Shown here piece by piece: positions 22,194-29,813 of a stretch of 64,000 nucleotides of DNA. The stretch's first letter is position 1; each line of letters starts with the position of its first letter. A model generated the notes under the pieces. That model did not search any database and had not been told where the DNA came from. It worked only from the letters and a program-made list of their open reading frames with translations. The position numbers were made by a program, and so were the translations under genes. The stretch covers positions 1-64,000 of the forward strand of contig JACRAZ010000087.1 of the NCBI GenBank assembly GCA_016213205.1. The letters run 5' to 3'. The DNA comes from Burkholderiales bacterium. Its GTDB lineage: Bacteria > Pseudomonadota > Gammaproteobacteria > Burkholderiales > Burkholderiaceae_C.

Positions 22194-22246
22194 TTGGCGT
22201 CCTACAGGGTAAGTAGTATATTTTACTTAATATGTAGCATATGCTA
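22194..22246 (+). promoter_or_regulatory. chr operon promoter with two palindromes
   Basis: TTGGCG (22194-22199) and TATATT (22217-22222) are spaced by 17 bases and fit a sigma-70 promoter. TAAGTA-N8-TACTTA at 22210-22229 covers the -10 element. A second perfect palindrome, TAGCATATGCTA, lies at 22235-22246 just before chrB. The region is strikingly AT-rich in this genome. The sites are likely operators for ChrB, which acts as a chromate-responsive regulator in other bacteria; binding here is inferred. Confidence 0.6.
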
Positions 22247-22252
22247 TTACCC

Positions 22253-23188
22253 ATGTGGTCCGTCCTGATCGTCACACTGCCGACCCGGCCGAATGCGGTG
22301 CGCCTGCGCATCTGGCGTGCGCTCAAGTCGCTGGGCTGCGCGGCGCTGCGTGATGGCGCCTACCTGCTGCCGCCCGCGCAGGCGCCCGCGCTCGAGGCGC
22401 TGGCCGAGGAGGTGCGCACGCACGGCGGCACGGCCTCGGTGCTGTCGCTCGCGCCGCGGGACGAGGTCCAGCGTCAGGAGATCCTGGCCCAGTTCGACCG
22501 CAGCGAGGCCTACGCCGCCTGGCAGGGCACGGCCACCACGCTGGAGCAGGCGCTGCCGGGCCTGGCCGAGACCGAGGCGCGCCGCCGCCTGCGCGCGGTG
22601 GCCGAGGCGCTGGCCACGCTGCGCCAGATCGATTACTACCCCGGCGCCGCGGCCGAGCAGGCCGAGACCCGGCTCGCCGCATTGCGCCAGGCGCTGGACG
22701 CGCAGTTCTCGCGTGGTGAACCCAGCGCGCGCCTGGATGCACGCATCCCCCGGCTCGATGTGCGCCAGTTCCAGGGCAAGCGCTGGGCCACGCGCGCACG
22801 CCCCTGGGTCGACCGGCTGGCCTGTGCCTGGCTGGTGCGCCGCTTCATCGACCCGCAGGCCCGGATCCTCTGGCTGGCCGACCCGGCGCGCGCGCCACGC
22901 GGCGTGCTGGGCTTCGACTACGACGGCGCCCGCTTCACCCACGTGGGGTCCCGGGTCAGCGCCGAGGTGCTGATGCTGAGCTTCGGCCTCGCCCAGGATG
23001 CACGGCTGCAGCGCATTGCCGCCGTGGTGCACTACCTCGATGTGGGCGGCATCCCCGCGCCCGAGGCGGCTGGCCTGGAAGCCGTGCTCGCAGGCCTGCG
23101 CGAGCTGCATGCCGACGACGACCAACTGCTCGCCGCCGCGATGGTGGTGTTCGATGCGCTGTACGCGGCGCCAGGAAACCCTGCATGA
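22253..23188 (+). CDS. chrB: Chromate resistance regulator ChrB
   Basis: A 311-residue ChrB protein. The N-terminal part begins WSVLIVTLPTRPNAVRLRIWRALKSLGCAALRDGAYLLP, a winged-helix-like start typical of the family. The C-terminal ChrB domain begins KRWATRARPWVDRLACAWLVRRFIDP near residue 175. ATG 22253 is preferred over ATG 22241, which lies inside the operator palindrome. ChrB in Ochrobactrum represses the operon until chromate is present. The stop overlaps chrA (ATGA). A second copy of the C-terminal domain is encoded three genes downstream. Confidence 0.9.
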   Translation: MWSVLIVTLPTRPNAVRLRIWRALKSLGCAALRDGAYLLPPAQAPALEALAEEVRTHGGTASVLSLAPRDEVQRQEILAQFDRSEAYAAWQGTATTLEQALPGLAETEARRRLRAVAEALATLRQIDYYPGAAAEQAETRLAALRQALDAQFSRGEPSARLDARIPRLDVRQFQGKRWATRARPWVDRLACAWLVRRFIDPQARILWLADPARAPRGVLGFDYDGARFTHVGSRVSAEVLMLSFGLAQDARLQRIAAVVHYLDVGGIPAPEAAGLEAVLAGLRELHADDDQLLAAAMVVFDALYAAPGNPA

Positions 23189-24546
23189 GCCCTGCCGCCC
23201 TGGACACCCCCGCCGCGCCGGCGGCCCCGCCCGCCCCGGTGAGCTTTGGTGAAGCGTTCCGCTTCTGGCTGAAGCTCGGCTTCATCAGCTTCGGCGGGCC
23301 GGCGGGGCAGATCGCCATCATGCACAGCGAGCTGGTGGAGCGCCGCCGCTGGATCAGCGAGCAACGCTTCCTGCATGCGCTGAACTACTGCATGCTGCTG
23401 CCCGGCCCCGAGGCGCAGCAGCTCGCCACCTACATCGGCTGGCTGATGCACCGCACCGCCGGCGGCATCGTGGCCGGTGCGCTGTTCGTGCTGCCTTCGT
23501 TGTTCATCCTGGTGGCACTGTCGTGGATCTACATCCGCTTCGGCAACCTGCCGGTGGTGGCGGGCCTGTTCTACGGCATCAAGCCCGCGGTGACGGCGCT
23601 GGTGCTGCACGCGGCGCACCGCATCGGCACCCGGGCGCTGAAGAACCGCTGGCTGTGGGGCATTGCGGCAGCGGCCTTCGTCGCGATCTTCGCGTTCGAC
23701 CTGCCGTTCCCGGCCATCGTGGCGGCGGCCGCGCTGATCGGCCACTTCGGCGGCCGCCATGCGCCGCAGGTGTTTGCCACAGGCGGCGGCCATGGCGCGG
23801 CGAAGCAGCACCACGGCCCCGCACTGATCGACGACCACACGCCCACGCCGGCACATGCGCGCTTCTCGCGCCGCCACCTGGCGCGGGTGCTGCTGGCGGG
23901 CCTGGCGCTCGGCGGCACCGTGATGGCCGCGCTGGTGGCGTTGCACGGCTGGCACGGCACGCTCACGCAGATGGGCTGGTTCTTCACCAAGGCGGCGTTG
24001 CTCACCTTCGGCGGGGCCTACGCGGTGCTGCCCTATGTGTACCAGGGCGCGGTGGAGCACCACCAGTGGCTCAGCGCGCCGCAGATGATCGACGGCCTCG
24101 CGCTCGGCGAAACCACGCCGGGCCCGCTGATCATGGTGGTGGCCTTCGTCGGCTTCGTCGGCGGCTGGCTGAAGCAGGTGCTGGGGCCCGACGCGCTGTT
24201 CCTGGGCGGCGCGCTGGCGGCCACCGTGGTCACCTTTTTCACCTTCCTGCCTTCGTTCGTGTTCATCCTGGCCGGCGGCCCGCTGGTGGAGGCCACGCAC
24301 GGCAGGCTGGGCTTCACCGCGCCGCTCACCGCCATCACCGCCGCGGTGGTGGGCGTGATCCTGAACCTGGCGCTGTTCTTCGCCTACCACGTGCTGTGGC
24401 CCCAGGGCCTGGCCGGACCGTTCGATGCCGTGTCGGCCGCGATCGCCATCGCGGCGGCGGTGGCCCTTTTCCGCTTCAAGCTGGGCGTGATGCCCCTGCT
24501 GGCGCTGTGCGGTGGCCTGGGGCTGGCGCTGCGCCTGTTCACCTGA
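23185..24546 (+). CDS. chrA: Chromate transporter ChrA
   Basis: A CHR-family inner-membrane efflux pump of 453 residues made of two homologous halves. The first half has FISFGGPAGQIAIMH and LPGPEAQQLATYIGW; the second has LTFGGAYAVLPYVYQG and GETTPGPLIMVVAFVGF. These are the family signatures for chromate (and sulfate) binding. The N-terminus is Pro/Ala-rich. It is coupled to chrB by ATGA and precedes the SOD/rhodanese gene by 10 bases. Its role is to expel CrO4(2-) from the cytoplasm. Confidence 0.95.
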   Translation: MSPAALDTPAAPAAPPAPVSFGEAFRFWLKLGFISFGGPAGQIAIMHSELVERRRWISEQRFLHALNYCMLLPGPEAQQLATYIGWLMHRTAGGIVAGALFVLPSLFILVALSWIYIRFGNLPVVAGLFYGIKPAVTALVLHAAHRIGTRALKNRWLWGIAAAAFVAIFAFDLPFPAIVAAAALIGHFGGRHAPQVFATGGGHGAAKQHHGPALIDDHTPTPAHARFSRRHLARVLLAGLALGGTVMAALVALHGWHGTLTQMGWFFTKAALLTFGGAYAVLPYVYQGAVEHHQWLSAPQMIDGLALGETTPGPLIMVVAFVGFVGGWLKQVLGPDALFLGGALAATVVTFFTFLPSFVFILAGGPLVEATHGRLGFTAPLTAITAAVVGVILNLALFFAYHVLWPQGLAGPFDAVSAAIAIAAAVALFRFKLGVMPLLALCGGLGLALRLFT

Positions 24547-24556
24547 GGAGATGACC

Positions 24557-25192
24557 ATGAGCGAACCGATGGTGCCGGCGATGGCACTGGCCTTGAGCGC
24601 CAGCTTCGGCAGCGTGGCCGGCTGGCGCGCAGATGCGTTGGCCCGCGTGGCCGAGGCCGGCGCGGCGGCCGGGTGGTTGAGCCTGTGGTTCGACCCCGCG
24701 CAGGGGCGCCTGCAGCAGCAGGTGCTGGCCGCGGCCCCGGCAGCCGATGCCGATGCCGATGCCGATGCCGATGCCCTGCTGGTGCTGCCGCTGGCGCCCG
24801 GGGCCGAGGCGGCACTCGAGGGCATCGACTGGGCGGCCGTGTACGAGCGCTACCAGCACGCGGTGCATGCCGCCAGCAGCTGCTGCGGCGCGGCGGCCGA
24901 CGCGGCCACCGGCGCGCTGCTGCTCGACGTGCGGCGCGCCGGCGTGTTTGCGCAGGCACCGAGCATGCTGCCGGGCGCGCGCTGGCACGACCCGGCCGAC
25001 GTGGACCGCTGGGCCGCCGCGCTGCCCCGCGACACCCCGGTGCTGGTGTACTGCGTCTACGGCCACGAGGTCGGCCGCGCCACCGCGCTGCGGCTGCGGG
25101 CGGCCGGTGTGAATGCGCGTTACCTGTCCGGTGGCTTCCACGACTGGCAGGCCGCCGGCCGGCCGGTGGTGGCGAAGGAGGGCACGCCATGA
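24557..25192 (+). CDS. SOD-remnant/rhodanese fusion protein of the chr operon
   Basis: A 211-residue protein of two parts. Residues 10-100 resemble the C-terminal domain of Fe/Mn superoxide dismutase: SASFGSVAGWRADALARV matches the SOD FGS-FxxF start, and GIDWAAVYERYQ matches the SOD end. The metal-binding D-x-W/Y-E-H-A-Y block is absent and an (Ala-Asp) run sits before its place. Residues 115-211 are a rhodanese domain with the active-site loop starting at Cys166 (CVYGHEVG). The SOD half is thus probably non-catalytic. Canonical chr operons carry a separate Fe-SOD gene (chrC). The ATG at 24557 has GAGGAG six bases upstream. The stop overlaps the next gene. Confidence 0.75.
   Translation: MSEPMVPAMALALSASFGSVAGWRADALARVAEAGAAAGWLSLWFDPAQGRLQQQVLAAAPAADADADADADALLVLPLAPGAEAALEGIDWAAVYERYQHAVHAASSCCGAAADAATGALLLDVRRAGVFAQAPSMLPGARWHDPADVDRWAAALPRDTPVLVYCVYGHEVGRATALRLRAAGVNARYLSGGFHDWQAAGRPVVAKEGTP
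24743..24775 (+). repeat. GCCGAT hexamer repeat inside the fusion gene
   Basis: Five exact GCCGAT units plus GCC encode an Ala-Asp run at the junction region of the SOD-like half. Unit gain or loss keeps the frame. Confidence 0.9.
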
Positions 25193-25683
25193 AATGGGTC
25201 ACCCGCGAGCGGCCGAAGATCGATCGCATTGCCTGCCCCTGGCTGATTGCGCGCTTCATCGATGCTGCGCCGCAGTTCCTGTACGTGCCCGCCGGCCAGG
25301 TGCTGGCGGTGGCCGCCGAGACCGGGGCCGTGCCCTACGACATCCCGGGCGTCGAACTCAGCCACGTGGGCGAGCGGTGCAGCTTCGATGCCTTCCTCGC
25401 GCGCTACGGGCTCACCGAGCCCGCGTTGCAGCAGCTGGCGCTGATCGTGCGCGGCGCGGACACCTCGCGGCTGGACCTCACGCCCCAATCGGCCGGCTTG
25501 TATGCGGTGTCGCTGGGCCTGGCGCGTGTGTTTGCCGACGACCAGGTGCTGCTTCAGCATGGCATGGTGGTCTACGATGCGCTCTTCGCCTGGTGCCGTG
25601 ACGGCCAGGATGAAGCGCATCGTTGGCCGCCGGGATCGCCTGATGGCCCGGATGGCCCCCACGCCGCTGCGGAGCTGAGATGA
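25189..25683 (+). CDS. ChrB C-terminal-domain protein
   Basis: A 164-residue protein consisting of only the ChrB C-terminal domain: MKWVTRERPKIDRIACPWL near the start, and LSHVGERCSFDAFLARYGL in the middle. It parallels residues 175-300 of ChrB (KRWATRARPWVDRLACAWL, then FTHVGSRV). It lacks the N-terminal DNA-binding part, so it is more likely a metal or redox handling enzyme or a partner than a repressor. Its conserved Cys and His residues are candidates for metal binding. It is coupled on both sides by ATGA overlaps. Confidence 0.82.
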   Translation: MKWVTRERPKIDRIACPWLIARFIDAAPQFLYVPAGQVLAVAAETGAVPYDIPGVELSHVGERCSFDAFLARYGLTEPALQQLALIVRGADTSRLDLTPQSAGLYAVSLGLARVFADDQVLLQHGMVVYDALFAWCRDGQDEAHRWPPGSPDGPDGPHAAAELR

Positions 25684-26294
25684 GCGTGCCCACCACCATC
25701 ACCGGTACCGATGGCCAGCCACGCTGCCGGTGGTGTGCCGCGGCCCCGGAGTTCGAGCCCTACCACGACACCGAGTGGGGCTTTCCGGTGGCCGATGACA
25801 CCCGCCTGTTCGAGAAGCTGTGCCTGGAGGGCTTTCAGTCCGGGCTGAGCTGGCGAACCATCCTGGCCAAGCGCGAGAACTTCCGGCGTGCGTTCGAAGG
25901 CTTCGACCCGCACCGGGTGGCCCGCTTCGGCGAGCAGCGCATCGCCCAGCTGCTGCAGGACGAGGGCATCGTGCGCCACCGCGGCAAGATCGAGGCGGTG
26001 GTCCACAACGCGCAGTGCGCGCTGCGGCTGCAGGCCGAATGCGGATCACTGGCCGCGTACCTCTGGCGCCATGAAGCGGCGCCTGCTGCGGCCGAGGCGG
26101 CGCAGGCCGTGTCGGTCTCGCCGCAATCGATCGCCCTGTCCAAGGACCTGAAGCGGCGCGGCTGGAAGTTCGTCGGGCCGACCACCGTGTATGCCTTCAT
26201 GCAGGCCATGGGCCTGGTGAACGACCATGCCCCGGGCTGCGTGATCGGCCCCCGCGCGGCCCTGGCGCGCCAGGCTTTTCGTCCGCCAACCTGA
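25680..26294 (+). CDS. tag: DNA-3-methyladenine glycosylase I
   Basis: A base-excision repair glycosylase that removes 3-methyladenine. It has the helix-hairpin fold and the zinc ligands of Tag: a CRWC start, the His of YHDTEWG, and the His and Cys of NDHAPGC near the C-terminus. The signature LFEKLCLEGFQSGLSWRTIL is present. At 204 residues it has the usual length. It is the last gene of the chr operon, joined by an ATGA overlap. That links DNA repair to chromate defence, since Cr(VI) reduction damages DNA. Confidence 0.93.
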   Translation: MSVPTTITGTDGQPRCRWCAAAPEFEPYHDTEWGFPVADDTRLFEKLCLEGFQSGLSWRTILAKRENFRRAFEGFDPHRVARFGEQRIAQLLQDEGIVRHRGKIEAVVHNAQCALRLQAECGSLAAYLWRHEAAPAAAEAAQAVSVSPQSIALSKDLKRRGWKFVGPTTVYAFMQAMGLVNDHAPGCVIGPRAALARQAFRPPT

Positions 26295-26369
26295 GGGGCA
26301 GGCGGCCGCGCCGTTGTACCCTAGGGCCGTGGCGCCACGGTGCGCCGGCGCAAGGCACGAGGAGGCGAT

Positions 26370-26891
26370 GTGAGCAAATGGCGGATCCTGGGGCTGCTGG
26401 CCTGCCTGGCGGGGCCGCTGGTGGCCGGCGCGCAGCAAGCCGCCCATCAGCACGGCACGGTGCTGCTGGACGTGGCGGTGGACGCGAGCACGCTGAGCCT
26501 GCGGCTCGAAGCGCCCCTGGACAGCCTGCTCGGCTTCGAGCGTGCGCCACGCAGCGACGCCGAACGCAAGGCGGCCGACACGATGCGCGCCCAACTGGGC
26601 CAGGCGGCCACGATGTTCGGCCTGGATGCCGCCGCGGGCTGCGTGCTGCAACCGCCGCAGATCAGCGCCCCGGCCCTGGAGCCCGGCGCGAAGGCCGACG
26701 AACACGCCGAGCTCGTGGCGAGCTACCTGTTCCGCTGCCGCCAGCCCGGCGTGCTGCGCGTGGCCGACCTCAACGGCCTGCTCATCGCCTTCCCGCGCAT
26801 CCAGCGCGTGGAGGTGCAGGTGGCGGCGCCCGGCGGCCAGTGGAAGCAGGTGCTGAAGCGGCCGCAGGCGATGGTGAAGCTGGTGCGTTGA
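26370..26891 (+). CDS. DUF2796/ZrgA-like exported protein
   Basis: A 173-residue protein. The N-terminal signal peptide is ILGLLACLAGPLVAGAQQ. A conserved body follows: AHQHGTVLLDVAVDASTLSLRLEAPLDSLLGFE, and later VASYLFRCRQPGVLRVADLNGLLIAFPRIQRVEVQVA. This matches the DUF2796 family, whose ZrgA member takes part in zinc uptake. The start is GTG 26370 with AGGAGG upstream. A histidine-rich loop typical of zinc-binding ZrgA is absent. It follows tag after 75 bases and may be independent of the chr operon. Confidence 0.7.
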   Translation: MSKWRILGLLACLAGPLVAGAQQAAHQHGTVLLDVAVDASTLSLRLEAPLDSLLGFERAPRSDAERKAADTMRAQLGQAATMFGLDAAAGCVLQPPQISAPALEPGAKADEHAELVASYLFRCRQPGVLRVADLNGLLIAFPRIQRVEVQVAAPGGQWKQVLKRPQAMVKLVR

Positions 26892-28472: not shown

Positions 28473-29813
28473 TCAGCCGAGGGCAATCGGGTCGACGAAC
28501 CCGGGCGTGCCCTGGATCTGGACTTCGCCGTTGATCAGCACTTCCGTGCCCGGGCCGCCGATCAGCACGTCGAAGCCCGCGCCGCCATCGAGCATGTCGT
28601 TGCCCGCGCCGCCGATCAGCACGTCGTTCCCGTCGCCGCCGTTGAGCGTGAGCGGCAGCGCCACCGCGGGCGTGCCGTTGGCAATGACCACGTCGTTGCC
28701 GGCCAGGCCGTTGAACTGCAGGCGGCCGAGGCCCGGCTCGAAGTTGCGGATCACCACTTCGGCGGCCAGGCCGCGCAGCACCAGTGCGCCGTTGTCCATC
28801 AGCACCGCCACCCCGTCGTCGGCCGCGCTGCCGTTGATCACCACGGTGTCGGTCGCGCCGTCGCCGCCGCCGCCGGCTGCGGCGAGGTCGTTGCGCACGG
28901 TCTTCACGTCAGCGCCCGCGAGATCGTTGACGGTGATGCGGTTGGCACCGCCGAGGGCGCGGATCTCCACCGTCTCGACGTCGTTGGTGTCCATCGCGAC
29001 GTTGCCGATGTCGCGGGTGAACAGCAGGCGCCCGCCGTTGGCCGACAGGGTGAACTGCTCGGCGATGTTGGCGCCGTCGAACTGCAGCGTGTCGGTGCCG
29101 GCCTGGCCTTAGACGATGTCGCTGCCGTCGCCCGGGTTCCAGACGAAGCGGTCGTCGGCGGCACCCAGCAGCGCGGTGTCGTTGCCCTGGTTGCCGTCCA
29201 CGGTGTCGTTGCCGTCGCCGCCCATCAGCAGGTCGGCGCCGTTGCCGCCGTTGAGGGTGTCGTTGCCGGCGCCGCCGATCAGCACGTCGTTGCTGATGCC
29301 GCCGAACAGCAGGTCGGCGCCGGCCTTGCCGAGCAGCGTGTCGTTGCCGTCCTGGCCGAAGAGCTGGTCGTTGCCCGAGCCGCCCGTCAGCACGTCGTTG
29401 CCGGCACCGCCGAACAGGTTGGCCTTCGGCAGCGCGCCGATGGCTTCGTTCAGTGTCACGGTGTATTTGCCGGCCTGGGCATAGACCTGGACCAGGCTGG
29501 TGTTGGCCACCGTGGGCGTGCCGCCGGTGACGGCCAGCGCACCGCCGTTCACCAGGATCTGCCCGGTGGCGTTGCGGCCGATGCTCAGGCTGTTGTCCAG
29601 CGCATTGCCGAACACGGTGAGCGTGCCCGCGTTGACGGTGGCGCTCGCGGCCGAGGCGGTGCGGTCGGGGTCCGAGGTGTCGGTCACGACGGTCCCGGTG
29701 GTCGTGGCGGGGCCGGCCGTGACGATCGCGGTGGCGGTGGCGGTGGTGGTGGCGGTGGTGGTGGCGGTGGTGGTGGCGTTGGTGGCCGGCAGGGTGGGCT
29801 GCGGCGTGTTCAT
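28473..29813 (-). pseudogene. RTX/hemolysin-type calcium-binding protein gene, split by one in-frame stop
   Basis: The frame would encode about 446 residues from ATG 29813. A Thr/Ala-rich N-terminus is followed by a beta-rich domain. RTX nonapeptides of the GGxGxDxL type come next ([19 protein letters not shown] and others), then a second beta domain and a final repeat group. One TAA at 29109-29111 is codon 235, after GDGSDIV. On both sides the frame stays open and homologous, and GQAGTDTLQFDG follows directly. A GAA to TAA change would explain it. The second half has an ATG at 28994. It lacks an obvious Sec signal, as expected for type I secretion. Either a recent nonsense mutation or an assembly error is possible. 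Confidence 0.75.

Follow-up and report, generated by a model that had tools for sequence, protein, structure and literature searches.

In the chromate operon of plasmid pMOL28 (Cupriavidus metallidurans CH34), which has the order chrB-chrA-SOD-rhodanese-chrF, the superoxide dismutase (SOD) gene chrC and the rhodanese gene chrE are separate neighbours in the slot between chrA and chrF. ChrE has been proposed, according to PMC10581121, which cites Juhnke 2002, to cleave chromium-glutathione complexes, and PMC2751784 reports that removal of chrC costs strain CH34 little resistance (0.30 vs 0.35 mM). In O. tritici, according to PMC4779226, ChrC is an Fe-SOD with activity and ChrF was purified as a Mn-SOD. 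That ChrF is, to judge from its primer, a ChrB_C protein, and the Mn-SOD report is odd in that the regulator ChrB has a ChrB_C domain as well. Plasmids of Acidovorax and Pseudomonas carry a full SOD-rhodanese as one gene in the same chrA-chrF slot, and in Rhizobium a full fusion gene adjoins a divergent chrB-chrA pair; the fusions of all three genera are annotated as Fe-Mn superoxide dismutase. No description of a ChrC-ChrE fusion or of a pseudo-SOD of the kind reported here was found in the open-licence papers searched. The fusion is thus already in the sequence records under an SOD name, while its repeated in-frame erosion, in which the same pair of helix blocks tends to survive, is undescribed as far as our searches go. 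Another metalloenzyme with a C-terminal rhodanese is BpPRF, a persulfide dioxygenase-rhodanese (PDB 5ve3), whose rhodanese part matches that of the protein described below.

The window, by which we mean the whole 64,000-nucleotide stretch of Burkholderiales DNA that was analysed, contains a chr operon in which all neighbours overlap by 4 bases, with the gap between chrA and the gene under study as the sole exception. The open frame of that gene is confirmed and translates to 211 aa (the window protein). Its start lies 10 bases 3' of the chrA stop, and visual inspection shows a GAGGAG ribosome-binding motif in front of it. The operon, in the order chrB-like, chrA, window gene, chrF and tag, and the parts of the gene are as follows.

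22241..23188, + strand: chrB-like regulator (Pfam ChrB_N weak, ChrB_C 152.4 bits); 4-base overlap with the chrA start
23185..24546, + strand: chrA, chromate efflux transporter (Pfam Chromate_transp 263.5 bits; NCBIfam TIGR00937 227.9 bits)
24557..25192, + strand: probable eroded ChrC-ChrE fusion, a putative pseudo-SOD alpha/beta half with a ChrE-like rhodanese (Pfam, NCBIfam, alignment, AlphaFold2, Foldseek)
24575..24637, + strand: block A, residues 7-27 (PAMALAL..FGSV..W), retained SOD helices, apparently constrained in eroded relatives (identity and pN/pS)
24743..24775, + strand: GCCGAT x5.5 tandem repeat coding an Ala-Asp run, in the loop preceding the third strand (repeat reading, model)
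24776..24823, + strand: third strand and a short Ala-rich remnant at the place of the D-M-Y-E-H metal block of full relatives (alignment)
24824..24877, + strand: block C, residues 90-107 (IDWAAVYERYQHAVHAAS), last SOD helix, apparently constrained (identity and pN/pS)
24908..25177, + strand: ChrE-like rhodanese domain with the catalytic Cys166 in YCVYGHEV (Pfam residues 119-200; NCBIfam rhodan_ChrE residues 111-207)
25189..25683, + strand: chrF, with ChrB_C as its only domain (Pfam 167.7 bits over 25192-25680); its start overlaps the window gene stop by 4 bases
25680..26294, + strand: tag, DNA-3-methyladenine glycosylase (Pfam Adenine_glyco 242.3 bits); 4-base overlap between its start and the chrF stop

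An SOD-derived half and a rhodanese are therefore found in one frame within a chr operon. Because the tag start overlaps the end of chrF, tag and the chr operon may be translated together. A ZrgA family zinc uptake protein (Pfam) lies directly behind the operon at 26340-26891, and the translated frame at 28473-28994 on the minus strand has glycine-Asp repeats, which we take to resemble the RTX calcium-binding kind.

Compared with ChrC of pMOL28, which resembles the SOD half of full fusions, the window protein occupies the same slot behind chrA, but ChrC has the N-terminal hairpin and the metal ligands, and the window protein has no ligands. With ChrE (NF033833) it shares the active-site Cys and the place before chrF, whereas its rhodanese scores below the family cut-off and is fused to the pseudo-SOD half. 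With the full ChrC-ChrE fusions of Burkholderiales and some plasmids it has in common the fusion itself, the linker helix and, mostly, the position behind chrA, but those proteins are 301-319 aa long and have four ligands, while the window protein is about 95 residues shorter and has no metal site. The partner fold in BpPRF, for its part, differs from SOD and remains catalytic.

That the C-terminal half is an intact-looking rhodanese with Cys166, as had been proposed, is borne out by the Pfam Rhodanese match (39.5 bits against a cut-off of 22.2, residues 119-200) and by the presence of the active-site Cys in 12/12 eroded fusions, as well as in 39 of 40 full ones. The best NCBIfam model for this half is rhodan_ChrE (NF033833) with 93.8 bits, below its cut-off of 120 bits, and hence we call the domain ChrE-like. 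The one full fusion with a replaced Cys (L061, genome G364) has Arg in its place (YRVYGHEV), and a second fragment in the same genome (L081) has the Cys.

The N-terminal half is harder to recognise. Pfam Sod_Fe_C gave no match in the window protein, nor at the place of the gene in the genome search, and in NCBIfam a weak SOD signal covers residues 10-54 (E 0.007). In single scans the Sod_Fe_C scores run from 80.4 and 80.1 bits in full fusions through 40.3, 31.3, 16.8 and 15.7 bits in eroded ones to none in the window protein and L038, and matches with E of at most 0.1 were obtained for 8 of the 12 eroded proteins. A profile built from the 12 eroded proteins found SODs in the PDB with a best E of 6.6e-7. 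AlphaFold2, run on eroded sequences alone, gave a pLDDT of 89.8 and a pTM of 0.87 for the whole window protein, with an N half of two helices, three strands and two helices in which the single stretch under pLDDT 50 is residues 64-70, within the Ala-Asp run. Among the best 50 matches that Foldseek listed for the complete protein there was no SOD, and a separate model was therefore made of the N half (pLDDT 86.0, pTM 0.77); the best 50 matches listed for it were all Fe/Mn SODs, with E values of 1.0e-3 to 4.2e-3, nothing below E 0.001 among them, and TM scores by query of 0.49-0.74. The N half is thus predicted to have the C-terminal alpha/beta fold of Fe/Mn SOD, and on the profile and model evidence together it is derived from that domain. 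The suggested SOD ancestry is in this way upheld by the Sod_Fe_C matches, the PDB profile and Foldseek, whereas a whole SOD domain is not found, only its alpha/beta half.

In the alignment none of the Fe/Mn SOD metal ligands (3 His, 1 Asp) is present in the window protein, neither at their usual positions nor elsewhere in a half that is predicted to fold in the SOD manner, and the N-terminal alpha-hairpin domain, which would carry the first two His ligands, is missing. The hairpin cannot precede the gene, since there is insufficient space between chrA and the start. When four hairpins were searched by tblastn at E 0.01 against 19 eroded, partial and rhodanese-only loci, short matches were obtained in L005, L031, L039 and L042 and none at the window locus, so a hidden upstream hairpin in another frame was rejected there. 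The Asp/Glu/His metal block behind the third strand has shrunk to a short Ala-rich stretch. It had been suggested that the Ala-Asp repeat replaces this block; the alignment contradicts this and puts the repeat in the loop before the third strand, away from the site of the lost block. With all four metal ligands gone, the window protein is not expected to act as an Fe/Mn superoxide dismutase.

Relatives were searched for with the window protein in four overlapping sets of genomes, with matches at E 1e-4 in 38 of 60 relatives (many to other rhodaneses), at 1e-15 in 12 of 21 genomes of the genus, at 1e-16 in 63 of 399 genomes of the family (44 of them over both halves by hand count), and at 1e-22 in 10 of 399 genomes of the order, where both halves were matched in the window genome, G048 and G725 only. 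The 13 matched places in the genus comprise five eroded and six full fusions, one cut by a contig end and one rhodanese alone. The fusion, found full-length in relatives and plasmids, is thus less unusual than first thought, and the earlier remark on a working Fe-SOD in the usual operon agrees with pMOL28 and its separate genes; in the family the slot is often taken by an SOD-rhodanese fusion (the 44 of 399 genomes above).

We aligned 55 fusions, of which 40 are full, 12 eroded (the window protein included) and 3 partial, the eroded group being defined from the sequences ahead of tree building. Entry to this set required an FGS-type motif, which is part of block A, and 34 matched loci are outside it: near-copies (L045 and L051, identical to L006 and L032, and L075, with one difference from L074), rhodaneses that lack an SOD part or are joined to ChrB_C, frames that are broken or partial (L063, L077-L079, L081), and L066, L082, L083 and L088, which fail the FGS-type motif. 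The last group includes L082, which resembles a full fusion with FGA, and L083 and L066, which are SOD remnants without block A that keep the metal block and helix C. L083 (G648) shows a complementary in-frame loss: it retains the metal block and, with SHHQNKY, the first helix of the hairpin, and has lost block A, two strands and the hinge His. The ligands His26, His75, Asp158 and His162 are kept in 40/40 full fusions and are present in 0, 0, 3 and 1 of the 12 eroded ones, respectively, so that the absence of metal ligands first noticed in the window protein extends largely to the eroded group.

Tyr34 is the gate residue of usual SODs. All 40 full fusions have Ala at this position and Asn at that of the usual SOD His30 (positions read against PDB 1coj), and pMOL28 ChrC (P0002) has the same kind of motif, SHYENNYGGAV. 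Despite these residues in the full fusions and the similar pMOL28 motif, a ChrC is reported as an active Fe-SOD in PMC4779226.

The gene neighbourhoods of the eroded copies are in line with that of the window gene. chrA is upstream in 12/12 eroded loci, and the chosen starts lie 9-33 bases behind its stop in 11 of these by script; for L039, where the script gave another frame, the start was judged by eye. The counts do not establish that chrF is commoner behind eroded genes (5/12) than behind full ones of the main clade (4/28, namely L050, L053, L057 and L061, with L032 omitted for lack of sequence), the Fisher p of 0.08 for chrF and erosion having been computed with an undercount of 3/26 full. 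A DUF6815 protein is often found directly 3' of the fusion in the place of chrF (L031:4651-5667, also L004, L006, L009, L012, L044 and others). Three loci with chrA upstream (L017, L076 and L080) have the rhodanese without an SOD part, possibly an end state of the erosion. Identical fusion frames were seen in genomes of different genera (L006 and L045, in G019 and G349), which reflects either recent transfer or contamination.

Sequence identity and pN/pS give a consistent picture of where constraint remains. Among eroded pairs, identity is 0.67 in block A, 0.71 in block C, 0.68 in the rhodanese and 0.23-0.44 in the four blocks between A and C, as against 0.79, 0.69, 0.66 and 0.78-0.85, respectively, among full pairs. 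pN/pS was calculated with column bootstraps for 11 eroded and 29 full rows, that is, with L040 (a near-copy of L039) and a second clade of 11 full rows omitted. As the synonymous sites are near saturation, the ratios are good for comparing blocks and do not represent absolute dN/dS; in the eroded proteins they are 0.48 (0.29-0.72) for block A, 0.42 (0.23-0.64) for block C and 0.46 (0.36-0.58) for the rhodanese, with 0.80, 1.05, 0.96 and 0.88 for the four blocks between A and C, and in the full fusions 0.17-0.40 across all blocks, the rhodanese having 0.40. This pattern suggests that constraint is gone from the metal site and remains on the two helix blocks. Block C, unchanged between the groups (0.42 vs 0.39), appears to be the firmer case of kept constraint. 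Block A is looser in eroded than in full proteins (0.48 vs 0.25), its interval of 0.29-0.72 overlaps the 0.56-1.11 of the adjoining freely evolving block, and its retention is partly by construction, since the FGS-type motif was in the row filter. Its identity to the nearest full partner is on average 0.68 for eroded proteins and 0.57 for the window protein, compared with 0.83 for full pairs.

A tree built on the linker helix and the rhodanese, with the eroded part excluded, has 9 changes between the full and the eroded form with 55 rows, and 10 with 53 rows, from which the long branches L036 and L016 were left out and in which the three partial rows are not counted. At least 4 changes are forced by well-supported branches; for example, the eroded L064 is sister to the full L060 (support 100/94) and the eroded L038 to the full L044 (95/83). 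A single origin of the eroded form was rejected, as one eroded clade has an AU p of 0.0027 (53-row tree), and it was recovered in 0/200 bootstrap trees. The labels cluster neither more nor less than when shuffled (10 changes vs a mean of 11.0, with no more than 10 in 142/500 shuffles), the tree leaves 22 of its 50 inner branches unsettled, and recombination between full and eroded genes could inflate the loss count. Overall, the tree suggests that the SOD part has lost the hairpin and the metal block several times separately.

Taken together, the window gene is probably an eroded ChrC-ChrE fusion whose product would be no dismutase but a rhodanese on a kept pseudo-SOD scaffold. Comparison shows that chrC and chrE are one gene in many relatives of the family, and that the SOD part has, here and in several other lineages, lost the hairpin and the metal block in frame, with the rhodanese left intact; the small resistance cost of chrC loss would permit decay of the SOD site. 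Selection on the two helix blocks and the confident model of both halves point to the alpha/beta remnant being kept as a scaffold for the rhodanese, perhaps as a packing, dimerisation or docking surface. By analogy with the proposed role of ChrE, the rhodanese may move sulfane sulfur or break chromium-thiol (glutathione) adducts arising from cytoplasmic chromate reduction, alongside efflux by ChrA. The genome encodes one other Fe/Mn SOD, to judge from its sequence an ordinary SodB, which would deal with superoxide, perhaps together with ChrF. A further-reaching proposal, possible but clearly tentative, is that SOD halves, once hairpin and metal site were lost, have repeatedly turned into an obligate pseudoenzyme scaffold for holding or regulating the chromate-operon rhodanese, with the two helix blocks as its working surface and the dismutase step passed to other proteins.

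The SOD half could alternatively be a passive vestige, selected only for solubility while the rhodanese does all the work, and persisting because in-frame deletions have yet to remove it. The middle of the remnant is near-free by pN/pS (0.80-1.05), the Ala-Asp run is coded by a hexamer repeat of the slippage type, and other parts have been lost elsewhere, block A in L083 and L066 and the whole SOD part in L017, L076 and L080. The use of block A in the row filter and the existence of L083 without it lower the weight of the scaffold reading and raise that of the vestige. However, in these 11 eroded proteins the constraint on blocks A and C is close to that on the rhodanese, even though the losses seem to have been independent, and the model is confident over both blocks. 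We therefore regard a mere vestige as rather unlikely, and keep to a rhodanese on a retained pseudo-SOD scaffold.

The original prediction of a sulfur-transfer or chromate-reducing protein on an SOD scaffold stands in part: homology, conservation, constraint and structure prediction speak for a rhodanese on an SOD-derived scaffold, whereas they give nothing to chromate reduction. Neither of the outcomes that it had named as refuting, an N half unlike SOD in fold or metal ligands elsewhere in that half, was seen in the predictions and the alignment. A new activity of the scaffold, such as reduction of chromate or binding of chromium by the Ala-Asp run or the Cys109-Cys110 pair, would suit the position in a chromate operon and the Asp run and two adjacent Cys of the window protein, but both features are found in 0/11 of the other eroded proteins, and no cofactor family was recognised by Pfam or NCBIfam. 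We consider it very improbable. The Ala-Asp repeat was rejected as a functional element, being unique to the window protein and modelled with less confidence than any other part of the N half, and a chromate reductase was likewise rejected, with no conserved feature and no redox family recognised (Pfam, NCBIfam).

The FGS segment is located at the SOD dimer interface. The window protein could thus be a hetero-oligomer subunit that gives part of the interface to a full SOD, and the genome G003 does hold a full and an eroded copy together. Such a role seems highly unlikely here, as the sole other Fe/Mn SOD of the window genome is the ordinary SodB kind and the ligand-loop part of the interface is lost. 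Finally, most of the SOD is gone and several of the genomes are draft assemblies, but a pseudogene or assembly artefact, with a broken chrC joined to chrE through deletion or misassembly, is hardly credible in view of open frames of such genes in twelve genomes or MAGs, their starts close behind the chrA stop, 11 of the 12 by script, and a rhodanese pN/pS of 0.46 in eroded proteins vs 0.40 in full ones.

One and the same operon offers a natural series, from an SOD-rhodanese with all ligands through a pseudo-SOD-rhodanese to a rhodanese alone, which makes testable both the weight of the SOD step in chromate resistance and the role of ChrE. There is also a warning for annotation: a second enzyme is encoded by some genes recorded as Fe-Mn superoxide dismutase, and close relatives of these genes are unlikely to dismutate superoxide.
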